Below are positions 1,058 to 18,879 of a stretch of DNA of 64,000 nucleotides, piece after piece. The notes below the pieces were generated by a model. It was given only the letters and a program-made list of their open reading frames with translations. It made no database searches and had not been told where the DNA came from. The translations under genes and the position numbers were made by a program. Position 1 is the first letter of the stretch, and each line of letters begins with the position of its first letter. The DNA is from Planctomycetaceae bacterium. Lineage in GTDB: Bacteria; Planctomycetota; Phycisphaerae; Phycisphaerales; UBA1924. The DNA lies in the NCBI GenBank assembly GCA_021294835.1, contig JAJTDF010000001.1:1-64000 (forward strand). Reading direction: 5' to 3'.

Positions 1058-1645
1058 TTGAAGTTGTTCGGGGTCGTTGACGACATCGGCCGATCTGTGG
1101 CGTTGCACCCTCGGGCGTGGGTGCGGGTGGTCCGTGCGCGGCCCGGGGCGGCGACCGGGGGCGTGGGGCGGCTGGCTGGGACATTCGTCCGATCCGGTAA
1201 CCTGCTGCTGGTGGTGGGGCTGGCGGCGCTGGCGGGGGTCACCGCGGCCCTGATCTGGCTGGAGGGGGCGGTGGGGGTGTATCTGCTGATCTTCTCGCCG
1301 GTGGCCATGCCGATGCTGGTTGGGGCGCTGACGCTGGTGATCGGGTTGGGGGTGCTGTGGAGGCGGCTGAAGGCGGGGGTGGTGCAGGGCATGCTGACGG
1401 CCCATCGGTGTCCGGTGTGCGATTTTGACCTGCGGGTGCAGGCGGAACTGGCCCTGGATGCGCTGCAGGGTGCGTCGGAGGCGGGTGCTGAGGAGTCGCT
1501 GGTGCGGTGTCCGGAGTGCGGGAGCGGCTGGCGGGCGGCCCGGCTTGGTCATGAGGGTCCGGAGCCGCCGGAGGTGATCGTGGTCCGGCGTTTTGACGAC
1601 GTGGCGGGCACCGGCGACCAGGGCCGGGGCGTCAGCCGCCCTTGA
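1058..1645 (+). CDS. Membrane protein with C-terminal zinc ribbon
   Basis: Unrecognised protein of up to 195 residues. Two strongly hydrophobic segments (about residues 47-68 and 72-100) are followed by a cytoplasmic-looking tail with CPVC (about 117-120) and CPEC (about 151-154), which together form a plausible four-cysteine zinc ribbon. Coding composition and conserved-looking cysteine spacing support a real gene. The start is uncertain: TTG at 1058 and the in-frame GTG at 1097 are both possible, with no clear Shine-Dalgarno site. Its 3' end overlaps the 3' end of hutI by 14 bp, tail to tail. No function can be assigned. Confidence 0.6.
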   Translation: MKLFGVVDDIGRSVALHPRAWVRVVRARPGAATGGVGRLAGTFVRSGNLLLVVGLAALAGVTAALIWLEGAVGVYLLIFSPVAMPMLVGALTLVIGLGVLWRRLKAGVVQGMLTAHRCPVCDFDLRVQAELALDALQGASEAGAEESLVRCPECGSGWRAARLGHEGPEPPEVIVVRRFDDVAGTGDQGRGVSRP

Positions 1646-2879
1646 CGATCTGGCCGGCGACGATGACCGCGGCGACCGGCGGGCGGCCGAAGGCGTAGGC
1701 GAGAACGCGTTCGTCGCGATCGGAGAGCAGGACGAGGTCGGCCCGCTTGCCGACGGCGATCTGGCCCCGGTCAGGCAGATCGAGCAGGCACGCCGGGTTG
1801 AAGGTGACGGCGGTGAGGGCTTCGGCGGGAGACAGGCCCAGATGCCGCACGGCGATGGCCATGACCTCGGGAATGGACGGACAGGGCGCTGAGCCGGGGT
1901 TGTGGTTGGTGGCCAGGACGAGGGCTCCGCCGGCTTGGAGGAAGCTTCGGCCCCGGGCGTACGCGCCCTGAAGATGGAACCCGCACGCGGGGAGCATCAC
2001 ACCGAAGGTGGAACTGGCGGCGAGTGAGGCGAGGTCGTCCTTGGTGCTGGCTTCCAGGTGGTCGACGCTGCGGGCTGAGAGGCGCAGCGCGGCGGGGATC
2101 ATGCCGAGGGAGTTGAACTGGTCGGCGTGCACGCGGACAGGGTGGCCGAGTTCGCGGGCGCGACCGAGCAGAAGGATGCACTGGTCGACTGACCAGGCGT
2201 CTTTCTCGCAATAGGCGTCGACGGCGACACCGGAGGAGCCGGGGAACTCGGCGGAGACGGCGGGGAGGGTCTGGCGGACGGTGATGCCGACGAAGCCGGG
2301 CTGGTCCGGGTCGATGGCGTGGCCGAGCAGGGCGGTTGCACGGATGGTGCCCGGCCAGTGGGCGCGGGCGTCAGCGATGGCGCGGAGCATCTTGAGTTCA
2401 TCGTCGGTGGTCAGGCCGTAGCCGCTCTTGACCTCGACGGTGGTGGTGCCGCAGCAGAGCATGGCATCGAGGCGCTCTAAGAGCAGTTCGGTGAGTTGCT
2501 GCTGGGTGGCCTCGCGGACGGCGCGGACGGTGGACATGATGCCGCCGCCCTTGCGGAGGATCTCGAGGTACGACACACCCCGGCGCTTCTGGTCCCATTC
2601 ATCAAGGCGGCTGCCGGCCCAGCAGGAGTGGGTGTGGGCGTCAATCAAGCCAGGGATCAGGGCGCGGCCCTTGGCGTCAAGCTCGCGAGCGCCCGCTGGG
2701 GCCTTGCGGGGCTTGGAGGCGGGCTTGAGGGGCTTGATGTCGGTGATCGTGCCGTTGTCGATGAAGACGTCGGCGAGGTCGATGACGTGCAGGCTGGAGG
2801 TGGTGTCGCCCCGATGGGGAACCGGGGCGGAGGAGAGGGCGGGCGACACGACACGGGTGTTGCGGATGATCAGGCTCAC
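1632..2879 (-). CDS. hutI: Imidazolonepropionase (HutI)
   Basis: Hydrolyses 4-imidazolone-5-propionate to N-formimidoyl-L-glutamate, the third step of histidine degradation. The 415 residues match the amidohydrolase family length (about 405). Visible motifs are DAHTHSCWAGSR (metal His pair), KGGGI, VEVKSGYGLT, RVHADQF, SVDHLE and ATNHNPGSAP. In characterised HutI the last motif is usually TDFNPGS and its Asp binds the metal; here the codon at 1905-1907 is Asn. The start is the GTG at 2879 (VSLIIRNTRVV); sequence further upstream is proline-rich and not family-like. It lies about 9.7 kb from hutG, hutU and hutH on the same strand. Confidence 0.93.
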   Translation of the reverse strand: MSLIIRNTRVVSPALSSAPVPHRGDTTSSLHVIDLADVFIDNGTITDIKPLKPASKPRKAPAGARELDAKGRALIPGLIDAHTHSCWAGSRLDEWDQKRRGVSYLEILRKGGGIMSTVRAVREATQQQLTELLLERLDAMLCCGTTTVEVKSGYGLTTDDELKMLRAIADARAHWPGTIRATALLGHAIDPDQPGFVGITVRQTLPAVSAEFPGSSGVAVDAYCEKDAWSVDQCILLLGRARELGHPVRVHADQFNSLGMIPAALRLSARSVDHLEASTKDDLASLAASSTFGVMLPACGFHLQGAYARGRSFLQAGGALVLATNHNPGSAPCPSIPEVMAIAVRHLGLSPAEALTAVTFNPACLLDLPDRGQIAVGKRADLVLLSDRDERVLAYAFGRPPVAAVIVAGQIVKGG

Positions 2880-12595: not shown

Positions 12596-13564
12596 TCAGG
12601 CCTTTCGGGCGGCCAGCCCGGAGAGGAACCGCAGGAAGAGGTAGACAGCGACGCGGGCGGTGCGGCCCTGCTCGTCATGGGCGGGGCAGAGTTCCATGAT
12701 GTCCATGCAGCGGACGCGCGGGTCCTGCCCGGCCGCCTGCGCGATGGCGGCGACTGTGTGCACGCTCATGCCGCAGGGGTTGATCGCGCTGACGCCGGGT
12801 GCGGCGGAGGCGTCGATAGCGTCCAGGTCGATGCTCAGGAAGGCGGGGGCGTCGGGCAGTCGGCGGAAAACGCCGGCCGGATCGTGCGACGCGAGTTCTG
12901 CGGGCAGGATGACCCCGCCGGCGGAGAGGAAGTAGGCGTAGTGCTCTGCGCAGTTGACCAGGGGCTCGGCGCCAACGTTGAGCAGGCTGGTGATGCAGCG
13001 CTCGTCGAGCAATCGGCGGAAGGGCATGCCGGAGCCGTCGGTGGGGCGGACGTCCAGGTGGGGGTCGATGTACAGCCCAGCGCGAACGCCTGCGGAGCCG
13101 GCGGCGGCGCGAACGAAGGGGTAGGTGAGGTCGTGTCCGCCGCCGATGCCGACGGGCAGGAGGCCGGCCTGCAGGATGGCCGTTGCGGCGAGGGTGACTC
13201 GGCGGTGGGTCTCGGCGAGGGTGTCTCCGGGGACGATGTCGCCGAAGTCGGCGATGCGTGGGAAGGGCGGGTGGTCGCCCCGCAGGCCGGGGCCGGCCTG
13301 ATCCATGCGCTCGGCGACGCCGTACTTGGCGAACGCGGCACGGAACGCGGCGGGCCCCTGCGCAGCGCCGGGGCGGCCGTGGTTGAGCCGCACGCCGGTG
13401 TCGTCGGCAAGGCCGAGCAGGCCGACCTTGCAGCGGGCCAGATCGGCGGCGATGGCGGCGGGGGGGCGGTCGAAGAAATCCGCATCCACTCGCATGACCG
13501 CGGCGGCCAATCGCCCGACGGAGGCGTGGCACGGCGGTGGGGGGGTCAGGTGTTCAAGGTCCAT
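12596..13564 (-). CDS. hutG: Formimidoylglutamase (HutG, arginase/ureohydrolase family)
   Basis: 322 residues of the binuclear-manganese ureohydrolase fold. The metal ligands appear in GIGGGHDLT, YIDPHLDVRP (usually DAHLDVR; here Pro replaces Ala) and LSIDLDAIDAS. In this context it would hydrolyse N-formimidoyl-L-glutamate to glutamate and formamide, the last step of the four-enzyme hut pathway. The gene lies 45 bp downstream of hutU on the same strand, which supports that substrate over arginine or agmatine. ATG 13564 opens MDLEHLTPPPPCH. Confidence 0.87.
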   Translation of the reverse strand: MDLEHLTPPPPCHASVGRLAAAVMRVDADFFDRPPAAIAADLARCKVGLLGLADDTGVRLNHGRPGAAQGPAAFRAAFAKYGVAERMDQAGPGLRGDHPPFPRIADFGDIVPGDTLAETHRRVTLAATAILQAGLLPVGIGGGHDLTYPFVRAAAGSAGVRAGLYIDPHLDVRPTDGSGMPFRRLLDERCITSLLNVGAEPLVNCAEHYAYFLSAGGVILPAELASHDPAGVFRRLPDAPAFLSIDLDAIDASAAPGVSAINPCGMSVHTVAAIAQAAGQDPRVRCMDIMELCPAHDEQGRTARVAVYLFLRFLSGLAARKA

Positions 13565-13609: not shown

Positions 13610-15316
13610 CTACCAGTTCTTCATGGGCACCTTGACGTGGTGCTCGTCGACGCAACGTTGGGCGATGTCGTAGCCGGCATCGGCATGGCGGAAGACCCCC
13701 ATGCCGGGGTCGTTGGTGAGCACGTTCTCGATGCGGCGGGCGGCCTCGGGCGTACCGTCGGCGACGATGACCTGGCCGGCGTGCTGGGAGAAGCCGATGC
13801 CGACACCGCCACCGTGGTGGAAACTCACCCAACTGGCGCCGGAGGCGATGTTGACGGCGTAGTTGAGGATGGCCCAGTCGCTGATGGCGTCGGTGCCGTC
13901 GATCATGCCCTCGGTTTCGCGGTTGGGCGAGGCCACCGAGCCGCAGTCCAGATGGTCGCGACCGATGACGATGGGGGCCCGGACCTTGCCGGTGCGGACG
14001 AGGTCGTTGAACAGCAGGCCGGCCTTGTGCCGCTCGCCATAGCCGAGCCAGCAGATGCGGGCGGGCAGCCCCTGGAAGGCGATGCGTTCGCGCGCCATGG
14101 TCAGCCAGTGGTGCAGGTCGCGGTGCTCGGGGAAGAGCTTCATCAGTTCGCGGTCGGTGGTGTAGATGTCCTCGGGGTCGCCGGAGAGGGCGCACCAGCG
14201 GAACGGCCCGCGACCGACGCAGAACTGCGGGCGGATGTACTCGGGAACGAAGCCCTTGAAGGCGAAGGCGTCGGAGAAGCCGTTGTCGTACGCCCGCTGG
14301 CGGATGTTGTTGCCGTAGTCGAAGGTGACGGCGCCGCGGCGCTGCAGATCAACCATGGCTCGCACGTGGCGGGTCATGGTGGCCAGCGAGTGGGTCTCGT
14401 ATTCAGCTGGGCTGACGCGGCGCAGGGTCTCGGCCTCGCTCTGCGTCAGGCCGACGGGCACATACGACAGCACGTCGTGGGCGGAAGTCTGGTCGGTAAG
14501 AACGTCGGGGATGATGTTGCGGGCAAGGAACCGCTCGAGCAGTTCGACGGCGTTGGCCTCGACACCCACGGAGACGGCCTTGCCGGCGGCCTTGAGGTCG
14601 AGAGCGCGATCAATCGCCTTGTCGATGTCGTACATCACCTCATCGAGGTAGCGGTCCTTCTTGCGGCGCAGAAGGGCCTGGCGGTCGGTGTCGGCGATGA
14701 GGACGGTGGCGCCGGCCATGACCGCGGCCAGGGGCTGGGCGCCGCCCATGCCGCCGCAGCCGGCGGTGACGACCAGCCGGCCGTTGAGGCTGCCGCCGAA
14801 GTGGGTGCGGCCGCACTGGGCGAAGGTCTCGTAGGTTCCTTGAACGATGCCCTGGGTTCCGATGTAGATCCAAGAGCCGGCGGTCATCTGACCGTACATG
14901 ATCAGGCCCTTGGCGGCCAGTTGATCAAAGTGCTCCTGGGTGGCCCAGTGGGGCACGAGGTTGGAGTTGGCGATGAGCACGCGGGGGGCGTCGGTGTGGG
15001 TGCGGATGATGCCGACGGGCTTGCCGGACTGCACCAGCAGGGTTTCATCAGGCTCGAGCTTTTTGAGCGACTCCACGATGGCGTCGAAAGCGGGCCAGCT
15101 GCGGGCGGCCTGCCCCCGACCTCCGTAGACCACCAGCGTGCCGGGCTTCTCGGCGACTTCGGGGGCAAGGTTGTTCATCAGCATCCGCATGGCGGCCTCA
15201 GCCTGCCAAGTCTTGCAGGTCCGCTGGTTGCCCCGGGGGGCACGGATAATGCGGATCGGCTCGTGAGCGGCGGACGAGCGGCTGCTGGAAGGGCTGGTGG
15301 CGGCGGAGGGGACCAT
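13610..15316 (-). CDS. hutU: Urocanate hydratase
   Basis: 568 residues. Converts urocanate to 4-imidazolone-5-propionate with tightly bound NAD+. Family motifs include [55 protein letters not shown], the glycine-rich [13 protein letters not shown], and the active-site Cys region [18 protein letters not shown] 15316 has CCGGAG about 9 nt upstream and gives normal length; the ATG nine codons earlier has no ribosome site. It sits between hutH (265 bp upstream) and hutG (45 bp downstream) on one strand, so the three are likely an operon. Confidence 0.96.
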
Positions 15317-15581
15317 GGGTGTACTCCGGAACTGCAGGATCATCCGTTGAGTCGGCTGCTGCGGGGGTTAGACATCAGTCGCCGGCGATGTTCCTGGGCA
15401 TCGCTGCCGCGGGGAGGCAGGTGCGGGATGCTGGGCGGGCAAGGCACGCGAGGCGCTCCGGCATCGGTGAATCCTGTTGGAGGCAGGACGAACAGCCGAC
15501 GAGGCCAGCGGGGATACGCACCGCCGGCGATGCCTCACGATAGGGGGCAGTCGCGACGGTGTGGAGCACGTTCCGGGATAG

Positions 15582-17249
15582 CTAACAGACGGCTGCGAGA
15601 GTGAGTTTGCCTGCCCGAATCAGGGCATCGACGGCCTCGATATCGGGCGTGAGGGGGCGGTCAGCCAAGAGCGTGGGAACCACGCGGCGGACGGCCTTGT
15701 GGGCCTTCTCGACGGCCAGGCCGGAGCGAAGGGGTCGGTGGATGTCGAGCGCCTGGGCGGCGACGATCAGTTCGATGGCGACGACGGCGCGGGCCAGGTG
15801 CAGCCCTCGGGCGGCCTTGGCGGCGGCGCGAGGTCCGAAGGAGTTGTAATCCTCCATTCCGGCGCAGGTGGGGACGTTGGCGACGCTTGCGGGCGTTGCG
15901 AGGTTGACCAGTTCGTTGACGGCTGCGGCGGCACTGTACTGGGCGATCATCAGGCCGCTTTGCAGACCGGGCTGCGGAGCCAGGAAGGGCTTGAGGCGGC
16001 TCTCAGGTTCGAAAGCGCCAGTCATCAGGTAGACGCGGCGTTCGGCGGCGCCGGCGAGGTGGCACAAGTGGATCGCCAGGCAGTCCAGCGGGATGGCGAT
16101 GGGCATGCCGTGGAAGTTGGCACCGGAGAGGATCGCGGGGCCGGGGGGCACCTGCCCTCGATATGACAGCACGGCGTCGGGCAGCATGGCGGCCAGTTCG
16201 CCTGCCGGGATGTGCACCTTGCCGCCCTTGACGGTGCCCCGGACCGAGGCGGGGGCGGGCGTGTCGCCGTAATCGGAACGGCCGGAGAACACCAGCGGGT
16301 TGTCGGTGACGGCGCCGAGTTCGTCGGCGATGGCCGAGGTGAACTCGGCGATACCGGCGGAAACCGCACCGAGGATAGTGGGGCCGGCCCGGAGCGAGTA
16401 GGGGTCCTGAACGCGGGGGTCATTCTCAAGGTGGCTGGTGGCGATGCTGGAACCGGCCAGAAGGTGGCGGAGCGTGAACGCTTCGGCGGCGAGGGCGACG
16501 TGGCGACGTGCGGCGTAAAGCCTCGGATCAAGAAACGCGTGGGTGGCCCGGCAGGCGTCAATGCTCATCGCCAGCGCGATGCGGGCGGAGTCGAGCAGTT
16601 GGGCGGCGTCGGCGGCCAGCAAAGCGCCTTGAGCGGCCATGAGGTGCGTGCCGTTGATCAGCGCGAGGCCCTCCTTGGCGTGCAGCACCAGCGGCTTGAT
16701 GCCGGCGGCCGACATGGCCTTGTCGGCGGATATGGTGCGGGCACCGGAGCGGATGTGGCCCTCGCCGATCAGGGCGAGCGCGACGGCGGCGAGCGGTGCC
16801 AGGTCGCCGGAGGCACCGACGGAGCCGACCGACGGAACCACGGGCGTGAGGCCCTTGTTGAGCAGGTCGCACAGGGTCTGGGCGACGACCGGACGGACAC
16901 CTGAAAGGCCCCGGGCCAGGGAGGCGGCCAGCAGCGTCATCATGGCGCGGGTGACGTCGACCGGAAGGGGTTCGCTGAAACCGGCGGCGTGCGAGCGGAC
17001 GAGGTTGCGTTGCAGGGCGAGCAGATCGTCATCGCCGATGCGTTTCTGAGCGAGTGAACCGAAGCCGGTGTTGATGCCGTAGAACGGACGACCGCTGCGC
17101 AGCGACCGGTCAACAACGGCACGGGAGCGGGCCATGGCCTTGAGGGCGGCGGGCGTGAGCTTGAGCCGGGCGCGGTCGCGGGCGACAGCGAGAACGTCGG
17201 CGAGGTTGATGGTCCGGGGCGCCAGGGTGATGGTGTCGGGCATGGGCAT
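15582..17249 (-). CDS. hutH: Histidine ammonia-lyase
   Basis: 555 residues. Deaminates L-histidine to trans-urocanate. The Ala-Ser-Gly triad that cyclises into the MIO electrophile is at about residues 146-148 (SVGSVGASGDLAPLA). YGINTGFGSL, the catalytic TDNPLVF and QPGLQSGLMIAQYSAAA are also present. It is about 45 residues longer than typical HutH, mainly through an insert after TDNPLVFSG (about residues 325-355) and an extended C-terminal half. The start is ATG 17249 (MPMPDT), with an alternative ATG two codons later. It is first gene of hutH-hutU-hutG; its promoter should lie in the AT-rich stretch at 17300-17340. Confidence 0.95.
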   Translation of the reverse strand: MPMPDTITLAPRTINLADVLAVARDRARLKLTPAALKAMARSRAVVDRSLRSGRPFYGINTGFGSLAQKRIGDDDLLALQRNLVRSHAAGFSEPLPVDVTRAMMTLLAASLARGLSGVRPVVAQTLCDLLNKGLTPVVPSVGSVGASGDLAPLAAVALALIGEGHIRSGARTISADKAMSAAGIKPLVLHAKEGLALINGTHLMAAQGALLAADAAQLLDSARIALAMSIDACRATHAFLDPRLYAARRHVALAAEAFTLRHLLAGSSIATSHLENDPRVQDPYSLRAGPTILGAVSAGIAEFTSAIADELGAVTDNPLVFSGRSDYGDTPAPASVRGTVKGGKVHIPAGELAAMLPDAVLSYRGQVPPGPAILSGANFHGMPIAIPLDCLAIHLCHLAGAAERRVYLMTGAFEPESRLKPFLAPQPGLQSGLMIAQYSAAAAVNELVNLATPASVANVPTCAGMEDYNSFGPRAAAKAARGLHLARAVVAIELIVAAQALDIHRPLRSGLAVEKAHKAVRRVVPTLLADRPLTPDIEAVDALIRAGKLTLAAVC

Positions 17250-17613
17250 CGAGGTTACGGGGCGGTCGCGGCGACGGGTTCTGGCCGGGGGACTGAAATC
17301 CAGACAAAACGTCTTATAATGTATGTTATGTAAAATTGGATCTGGCAGGGTGCGATGTCGGCCCGGCAGACCAGCAATCGGACTGGCCAGCGAAATGTCG
17401 CAGTTTCGGGAACCTGCATCGCCACAGTGACGAACCAGCGAGGGCGCACACCCTTTGCCAACCGGCCGTCCCCCATCACACCGGTCAACGCAATGCTCTA
17501 CGGATCTCTCTGGGACAGCTTGCAAGGGCACGCTTTGGAGTTACTTTGGGATATCGCAGGTTCACGAGGCCATCGGAGAGAACGACGGCGCAACAGTCAT
17601 CGGAGAGACCAGA
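17250..17613. other. Divergent intergenic region between hutH and the secreted repeat protein
   Basis: 364 bp without a convincing gene. The only AT-rich island for kilobases lies at 17311-17336 and includes TATAAT. The half facing the repeat protein gene is an untranslated leader of nearly 290 nt if that promoter is used. No riboswitch or RNA gene was recognised. Confidence 0.6.
17293..17320 (+). promoter_or_regulatory. Putative sigma-70-type promoter facing the repeat protein gene
   Basis: CTGAAA (17293-17298), 16-bp spacer, then TATAAT (17315-17320), a consensus -10. The adjoining ATAAT/GTTAT half sites at 17317-17328 form a small imperfect inverted repeat that could bind a regulator. TATAAG can also be read on the minus strand towards hutH, but without a good -35. 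Confidence 0.45.
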
Positions 17614-18879
17614 ATGAACGGCGTTTTTATGAGATGCTTCATCAGTCCCGCAGCGATTGCAGCCATCGCAGGATCGCTCGGCCTTGCAAGCGTGACCCAG
17701 GCGCAGTGGACAGTGACAAACCTCAACCCGTCGGGAGCGGTCGGGTCCTATGCCAACGCGGCCGCCGGCGGGCAACAGACCGGGTACGCCTTCGTGGGCG
17801 GTGTTCTGCGCGCCAGTTTGTGGCTTGAGACGGCAGAGTCATGGGTCGACTTGCATCCTGCGGCCGCGACCGAGTCGTTCGCATACGCCTCCGACGGCGT
17901 CCAGCAGGCAGGGTACGTGGTGGTGGGTGACATATCCCGCGCGGGCCTCTGGACCGGCACGTCGGCCTCGTGGCTCGACCTGCACCCTGCCCGGGCAGCG
18001 CAGTCGGTCGCTCTGGCCGTCGGCGGCGGGCAGCAGGCAGGAATTGTGATTCGCGGGATCACGACTTCAGCGAGTCTGTGGACGGGCACGGCGGCATCCT
18101 GGGTCAATCTGCAACCGGCCGGTGCGACGTCGTCATACGCCTACGCCGTCGATGGCGTACAACAGGGAGGCTGGGCCGAAGTCGGCGGAGTGCGGCGGGC
18201 GAGCCGGTGGACCGGCACGGCCGCATCGTGGGTTGATCTGCACCCCGCCGGCGCGACCGAGTCAGAACTCCGCGATGTCGCGGGTGCGAGCAGCTCCGAC
18301 CCGGGCCAGCAGGTGGGCTATGCGACGATAGACGGCGTGTCCCGTGCGAGCCTGTGGAACGGCACGGCCGCCTCACGGGTGGATTTGCACCCCGCCAACG
18401 CAGCGTCCTCCTACGCCAACGCTGTTCTCGGCGAGATGCAGGTGGGCCATGTGTTCATCGGCGGACGCAGCCGCGCCAGCTTGTGGACGGGCACGGCGGA
18501 CTCTTGGGTGAATTTGCATGACCTGCTGCCGTCATGGTTTACATCGAGCGAGGCACGAAGCATCTCCAGCGACGGTGTAAATATCCACATAGTCGGATGG
18601 GGCTTCAACAACATCACCTTTGCCCAGCAAGCCATCTTGTGGAGCAAGCCGCTCGGCACCGCTGGATGCAACCCGGCCGACATCGTGGGCATCGGAGGCA
18701 ATCCGCCGGCTGACGGCCTGCTGACCGGCGATGACTTCAATGCGTTCATAGCTGCCTTCATCGCTGATGATCCGCTGGCCGATGTGGTGACCATTGGCGG
18801 CCTTCCGCCGGGCGACGGAATGGTCACTGGCGACGATTTCAACGCGTTCATCGCTGCGTTTGCCGTTGGCTGTCCGTAA
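17614..18879 (+). CDS. Secreted repeat protein with tandem dockerin-like C-terminus
   Basis: 421 residues. An N-terminal signal peptide (hydrophobic about 8-29, cleavage likely after TQAQ) is followed by about six copies of a 43-48 residue repeat with core SLWTGTAASWVDLHPA and ending VGGVSRA, giving a probable beta-propeller or beta-solenoid. The C-terminus has two calcium-binding-like modules of pattern DGLLTGDDFNAFIAAF (about 365-390 and 395-418), each preceded by a GIGG/TIGG turn. This module type is common at the ends of secreted Phycisphaerales proteins. ATG 17614 has GGAGAG about 7 nt upstream. Function is unknown; cell-surface display or binding is inferred. Confidence 0.82.
   Translation: MNGVFMRCFISPAAIAAIAGSLGLASVTQAQWTVTNLNPSGAVGSYANAAAGGQQTGYAFVGGVLRASLWLETAESWVDLHPAAATESFAYASDGVQQAGYVVVGDISRAGLWTGTSASWLDLHPARAAQSVALAVGGGQQAGIVIRGITTSASLWTGTAASWVNLQPAGATSSYAYAVDGVQQGGWAEVGGVRRASRWTGTAASWVDLHPAGATESELRDVAGASSSDPGQQVGYATIDGVSRASLWNGTAASRVDLHPANAASSYANAVLGEMQVGHVFIGGRSRASLWTGTADSWVNLHDLLPSWFTSSEARSISSDGVNIHIVGWGFNNITFAQQAILWSKPLGTAGCNPADIVGIGGNPPADGLLTGDDFNAFIAAFIADDPLADVVTIGGLPPGDGMVTGDDFNAFIAAFAVGCP

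Follow-up and report, generated by a model that had tools for sequence, protein, structure and literature searches.

A putative imidazolonepropionase with asparagine in place of the beta-8 metal aspartate, and its counterparts in Phycisphaerales and other lineages

In the present study, we analyzed the putative imidazolonepropionase (HutI) encoded in the window, meaning the whole 64,000-nucleotide stretch of DNA, and found asparagine (Asn325) at the position where Bacillus subtilis HutI carries its beta-8 metal aspartate (Asp324). Judging from sequence comparisons, we consider it probable, at about 0.65, that this protein is a working imidazolonepropionase of its host's histidine degradation and that the Asn variant has been kept by selection. 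With a natural, recurrent and long-kept Asn in a pathway enzyme of known substrate, the need for Asp becomes testable in sister enzymes, beyond laboratory mutants, and the textbook role of the metal Asp in HutI deserves such a test.

The hutI gene and its beta-8 site

The gene (Table 1) could alternatively start at an ATG, in a longer frame reaching 3074 on the minus strand. Its product scored 347.3 bits against the TIGR01224 profile, above the curated cut-off of 298.15, and its nearest solved relatives by sequence were HutI structures (PDB HutI E 2e-61). Sequence identity to the HutI of B. subtilis (2bb0, 2g3f), of Agrobacterium (2gok, 2puz) and of environmental origin (2oof, 2q09) was 32-34%. 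The AlphaFold model (pLDDT 96.5, pTM 0.94) had the HutI fold: it superposed on 2g3f with a Z of 56.0 and an rmsd of 2.1 over 406 residues, and Z was 53-56 for five solved entries.

Table 1. Features of the window discussed in the text. Residue numbers are those of the window protein unless B. subtilis is named.
Feature	Position	Strand	Basis
hutI, imidazolonepropionase-family, 415 aa, GTG start at 2879	1632..2879	minus	TIGR01224, PDB HutI, model
T-N-H-N-P-G of the beta-8 motif	1893..1910	minus	frame reading
Asn325, codon AAC, replacing the beta-8 metal Asp (B. subtilis D324)	1905..1907	minus	frame and alignment
His274 (B. subtilis H272), proposed base	2058..2060	minus	alignment; coordinates by hand
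Gln254, at the position of B. subtilis Glu252	2118..2120	minus	alignment; coordinates by hand from the frame
His251, beta-5 metal ligand (B. subtilis H249)	2127..2129	minus	alignment; coordinates by hand from the frame
Asp190, acid where Asp-type HutI have Pro	2310..2312	minus	alignment; codon checked against the sequence
HTH, His82 and His84, beta-1 metal ligands (B. subtilis H80, H82)	2628..2636	minus	alignment; coordinates by hand from the frame
hutG-like, arginase family	12596..13564	minus	PF00491; TIGR01227 the best NCBIfam match
hutU, urocanate hydratase	13610..15343	minus	TIGR01228, 891 bits, over the curated cut-off
hutH, histidine ammonia-lyase, A-S-G triad present	15582..17531	minus	NF006871, TIGR01225

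In phmmer alignments, Asn325 was paired with D324 of 2bb0 and with the Asp of 2oof, 2gok and 2puz, with no gaps near the site. In the model, Asn325 comes after the strand 320-322, which is the position expected of the beta-8 ligand. These results bore out a sequence-only reading, which had proposed Asn at the metal-Asp position. That reading had also considered that an alignment might place the metal Asp elsewhere; this was not the case, and no Asp or Glu that could act as a substitute ligand was found within about 10 residues of Asn325 in the window protein.

The remaining HutI motifs had been described as intact, which proved correct for the ligand and pocket residues examined. According to the alignment, the three metal His, the beta-6 His and the substrate Arg, Tyr, Tyr and His were all present. 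In B. subtilis numbering, the window protein and the solved HutI share the three metal His, His272, Arg89, Tyr102, Tyr152, His185 and the NPG loop; we take these residues to play the roles usual in HutI, as the alignments indicate. The window protein differs from B. subtilis HutI in having Asn for Asp324 and Gln for Glu252, of which the Gln also occurs in 2gok and 2oof. Among the PDB matches there were four distinct HutI sequences, all with Asp. The beta-8 Asp of HutI is replaced in the window protein, so that it has every element of the amidohydrolase subtype III site (HxH, beta-5 His, beta-6 His, beta-8 Asp) except the Asp, and its fold agrees with this subtype. On its sequence, we file it as a putative imidazolonepropionase, an Asn variant inside the HutI family. 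The window's genome, 89% complete, had one HutI over the cut-off, and a second, Asp-type HutI was not found in it.

Distribution and history of the asparagine

To sample the site residue without selecting for it, we relied on a single set, a family search of 298 genomes of the class Phycisphaerae. This search gave 108 HutI over the cut-off, including the window's own; with three lower-scoring ones, 111 were fetched, and 110 of them span the site (L111 ends before it). The residue was Asn in 50/110 and Asp in 60/110, with no other residue. The 50 Asn proteins comprise all the HutI detected in families f1 (28 genomes), f4 (20) and f5 (2) of the window's order, and the remaining over-cut-off HutI of the order (f3, G131) had Asp. 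Each of the 50 genomes of this home clade had one over-cut-off HutI listed, with at most about six candidates scored per genome. A sequencing or assembly error in one genome was rejected as the source of Asn325, because all 50 HutI found in the three families carry it. The idea of a lineage feature, or group-specific variant, was thus supported insofar as Asn is fixed in the home families; its restriction to one group was not, since Asn also occurs across phyla.

A DNA pattern run over genome contigs (A-T-N-x-N-P-G, then two small residues and Pro), which selects Asn by construction, gave at least 120 stretches, of which at least 89 were near full-length HutI. Titles among the matches listed named Planctomycetota, Opitutales, Nitrospirota, Bacteroidales, Acetobacterales and other Proteobacteria, and Asn HutI were found outside the home order in Opitutales, Nitrospirota, Bacteroidales and some Alphaproteobacteria. 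In the phylum, a strict Asn pattern matched 12/392 genomes, all of the same order, which is an undercount, as serine codons of the AGY type and other spellings escape the pattern. Among the matches listed, 25 were titled Planctomycetota, with the NCBI order Phycisphaerales in 9, no order in 10, Planctomycetales in 5 and Brocadiales in 1; several of the order-less rows carry Phycisphaerae in the title, in keeping with the Phycisphaerae placement assumed in the sequence-only reading. Two metagenome-assembled genomes labelled Candidatus Kuenenia and Limnohabitans (L138, L213) have planctomycete-type Asn HutI, and L213 clusters with planctomycete rows in the HutI tree; in both cases the label or the bin appears to be mistaken.

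Bacteroidota, Alphaproteobacteria, Verrucomicrobiota and Nitrospirota were sampled with a pattern that accepts either Asp or Asn at the site and requires Pro at B. subtilis position 331. Met occupies this position in 43/60 planctomycete Asp-type HutI, and the Asn shares of the four samples may be too high and are not prevalences, because the pattern skips Asp types without this Pro. Together they gave 57 Asp and 10 Asn rows. Asn was found in 1/29 fetched HutI of Bacteroidota (the chosen centre genome), in 2/28 of Alphaproteobacteria (both genomes already in the Asn set beforehand), in 4/7 of Verrucomicrobiota and in 3/3 of Nitrospirota (one of each in the Asn set beforehand). Two unfetched Bacteroidota matches (G699, G725) spell Asn and are candidate HutI only, and the match L283 gave no HutI match on analysis. 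In the order of the Bacteroidota centre genome, 182/295 genomes matched the pattern; those read among the matches listed, where the Asn match of the centre genome itself does not appear, had Asp.

In total, 293 HutI rows were aligned, many of them picked by pattern, with Asn in 172, Asp in 121 and a third residue in none. As some genomes were fetched twice, these correspond to 263 distinct rows (142 Asn, 121 Asp). Ten loci in all were excluded, comprising L111 (truncated before the site) and others below 330 bits or about 300 residues. Motif rules requiring Asp would overlook or wrongly doubt many HutI. A search of the open literature, with most subscription papers outside its scope, found no paper on Asn-type HutI, which is no proof that the type is unpublished.

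We then examined a 161-row tree, unrooted and built with the site removed. It required seven Asn/Asp changes, at least three of which were forced by well-supported (starred) branches; L039 is a single long row and the deep branches are weakly supported, which leaves the number of origins unsure. A single Asn clade was rejected on a 72-row set without L039, for which five changes were needed, at a cost of 347 log-likelihood units (p-AU 5e-63). The Bacteroidales Asn rows adjoin Bacteroidota Asp rows, Nitrospirota form a separate group, and several small Asn groups lie within Alphaproteobacteria. The Opitutales Asn rows are nested in the Phycisphaerales clade, which suggests transfer. Gain and loss of Asn are not separable on the unrooted tree; from the Asp of AtzC and of the solved HutI, we infer that Asp is ancestral and that the direction was Asp to Asn.

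Across the 59 tree rows of the home clade, which together span about 34 substitutions per site, Asn never changes, yet a single step would turn AAC into GAC. Over the Asn rows, the codon was AAC in 129 and AAT in 42; since both synonymous codons are used, it is the residue and not the codon that is kept. Selection would be the cause of this constancy. The same constancy, together with the otherwise intact active site in the 50 home-clade genomes, argues against a weakened or decaying enzyme, which the sequence-only reading had raised as an option and which we regard as unlikely in the home clade. On that reading, the unstable imidazolone would hydrolyse spontaneously. Decay may occur in one Asn lineage. 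Three Opitutaceae-type rows (L148, L253, L327; the last two both from Ereboglobus G651) combine Asn with a change of the metal ligand His249 to Ser, and hutU was not found in G651; decay of the hut pathway is likely there. As a general explanation, decay seems very unlikely. By comparison, none of the 50 home-clade genomes showed loss of His249 or a change of Tyr102.

Active-site residues and precedents among amidohydrolases

To evaluate the rest of the active site, we compared 50 Asn and 63 Asp proteins and found the metal His, the beta-6 His, Arg89, Tyr102, Tyr152, His185, Asn326 and Gly328 (B. subtilis numbers) to be identical. Over the 172 Asn rows, H80 and H82 were each kept in 170 (2 gaps), H249 in 169, Y102 in 155, and H272, H185 and Y152 in all 172; the H272 column was His in 293/293 rows. 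The column of B. subtilis Glu252 held Gln in 172/172 Asn rows, and Glu was found there only alongside Asp324 (15 rows). The Asn types thus lack the two carboxylates usual at 324 and 252.

Outside HutI, the structure most similar to the model was AtzC, the N-isopropylammelide isopropylaminohydrolase (4cqb, 2qt3; subtype III), with Z of about 37 over about 361 residues. AtzC differs from the window HutI in substrate and reaction, shares 18-19% identity with it, and keeps the Asp in the wild type. An hhalign comparison (98.2% probability) placed His60/His62, His217, His249 and Asp303 of AtzC in the HutI blocks of His80/His82, His249, His272 and Asp324, in the same order. According to the AtzC study (PMC4577212), these AtzC residues other than His249 hold a mononuclear zinc, and the metal-bound water lies near His249 and Asp303. 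The D303N laboratory mutant, which makes the swap found naturally in HutI, was still active: kcat was 26 per s for the wild type, 90 for D303N and 36 for D303A, and kcat/KM was 8.5e3, 1.5e4 and 2.1e4, respectively. For H249A, activity was not detectable. The authors suspect product release to limit the rates, so a slower chemical step may be masked. These results indicate that the closest relative tested tolerates an Asp-to-Asn swap without loss of activity and that the beta-6 His is the needed base.

Reports on other amidohydrolases give the residue more weight. For subtype V, the corresponding Asp has been termed critical, with no activity in OngB D368A (PMC12017989); in guanine and cytosine deaminases, Asp is described as deprotonating the water (PMC12828455). 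Strong conservation of the beta-8 Asp throughout the superfamily and, in related deaminases, a role in deprotonating water have likewise been described (PMC4407906, PMC12828455).

For the window HutI, we propose that a mononuclear metal would be bound by His82, His84, His251 and the side-chain oxygen of Asn325, or by water in place of the latter. His274 would deprotonate the metal-bound water, and Arg91, Tyr104, Tyr154 and His187 would hold the substrate as in other HutI. In that case, this enzyme could do without the Asp, which would act as a second base or an orienting ligand and not as the essential catalyst. A bolder proposal is that HutI has repeatedly and adaptively lost its usual first-shell carboxylates (Asn at 324, Gln at 252), leaving histidine as the sole base and possibly bringing in another metal, e.g., Fe(II) for Zn. 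We offer this only tentatively, at less than even odds; if true, the beta-8 Asp would be evolvable and not essential in mononuclear amidohydrolases.

If carboxylate loss altered the chemistry itself, the Asn and the Gln at Glu252 might shift the metal preference or the pH optimum, with the acid at position 190 of the home clade taking over proton transfer. The residue pattern at 190 fits this proposal: in the home-clade set (Phycisphaerales and Opitutales, 105 rows), 84 have Asp and 18 Glu, versus Pro in 118/121 Asp-type rows. Cys86 directly after HTH (46/50) and Trp229 (49/50) also mark the clade. However, the Asn rows of Bacteroidales (29/29) and Nitrospirota (8/8) have Pro at 190, so an acid there is not a general compensation. 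Variant chemistry is possible, and this particular version of it appears unlikely on the sequences compared. One universal compensating change was sought across the Asn lineages and none was found. Several Asn lineages lean toward Phe at B. subtilis position 76, Ser at 297 and Leu at 341, where the window has Leu, Cys and Ile; a co-change test had just three independent pairs on starred branches, which puts significance out of reach.

Another reading is post-translational deamidation of the Asn to Asp, by which the usual ligand would be restored. Deamidation is favoured by Gly following Asn. In the 172 Asn rows, the following residue was never Gly; Cys (63) was commonest, ahead of Tyr (40), Phe (21) and Leu (14), and Ser occurred in 4. 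We regard deamidation as hardly credible.

Divergent Asn homologues and histidine pathway genes

Several Asn homologues outside the 50 home-clade genomes have lost Tyr102. Tyr102 was Arg in 14 proteobacterial Asn rows, which represent 10 loci (L126, L128, L144, L146, L158, L160, L167, L200, L229, L239), because two genomes had been fetched repeatedly. It was Gly in two rows from one genome (L215) and His in a Verrucomicrobia row (L177). In G654 (L215) and G660 (L158), hutU was not found; in G650, hutU lies on a different contig from the Asn-type HutI; and G655 has an Asp-type copy (L244) on its hutU-bearing contig in addition to an Asn copy. The alphaproteobacterium G659 has an Asn copy (L230) that keeps Tyr102 and lies on a contig with hutU. 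Judging by these residues and the hutU findings, the proteobacterial Asn homologues with altered Tyr102 may act on other substrates and are possibly a separate enzyme.

In the window, hutG, hutU and hutH are clustered with open frames at 12.6-17.5 kb, which places histidine degradation genes on the same stretch, and hutI lies about 10 kb away on the same strand. The sequence-only reading had called these three genes intact. Their frames are open and their motifs recognizable, as it stated, but hutG, and hutH for one of two models, fall below curated cut-offs. For hutG, the score was 153 bits against 229 for TIGR01227; it lies beside hutU and is perhaps a divergent formimidoylglutamase. For hutH, NF006871 gave 538 bits (cut-off 524) and TIGR01225 gave 513 (cut-off 539). 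Among the home-clade genomes, a hutU match was found in 50/50 (49 over the cut-off) and a hutH match in 49/50 (36 over the cut-off); G267 had no hutH match, and that of G102 was a contig-end fragment.

These data bear on whether the home-clade protein has another substrate and stands outside the pathway. The Acetobacterales-type Asn set, with its Tyr102-to-Arg change, would fit such a role, as would the two copies in G655 and the distance between hutI and the other hut genes in the window. The home clade, on the other hand, keeps the substrate residues examined and has no second over-cut-off HutI listed in any genome. Another hut gene was present on 33/50 of its fetched loci, with flanks of up to about 6 kb and less near contig ends; many Asp loci had shorter flanks, which makes Asn and Asp context counts non-comparable. 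Elsewhere, hutH accompanied 27/29 Bacteroidota Asn rows (one genome counted twice), and L230 in G659 shares its contig with hutU. For the home clade, a different substrate therefore strikes us as decidedly improbable. The reading as a working pathway enzyme has its own counter-evidence: among 17 further genomes picked for Asn-type matches, hutU was found in 13, the four distinct HutI sequences among the PDB matches all have Asp, OngB D368A was inactive, and some Asn lineages are possibly not HutI.

Several further features were observed around hutH. Its product spans 546 residues over 497 TIGR01225 positions, seemingly with an insertion of about 50 residues. The same genome contains a second, weaker histidine-ammonia-lyase-like gene (G000:C165:1509-2951) that scored 361 bits, below the cut-off. 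In the window, a plus-strand frame at 17455-18876 carries a C-terminal GC-type dockerin domain, and its start overlaps the start of the hutH frame.
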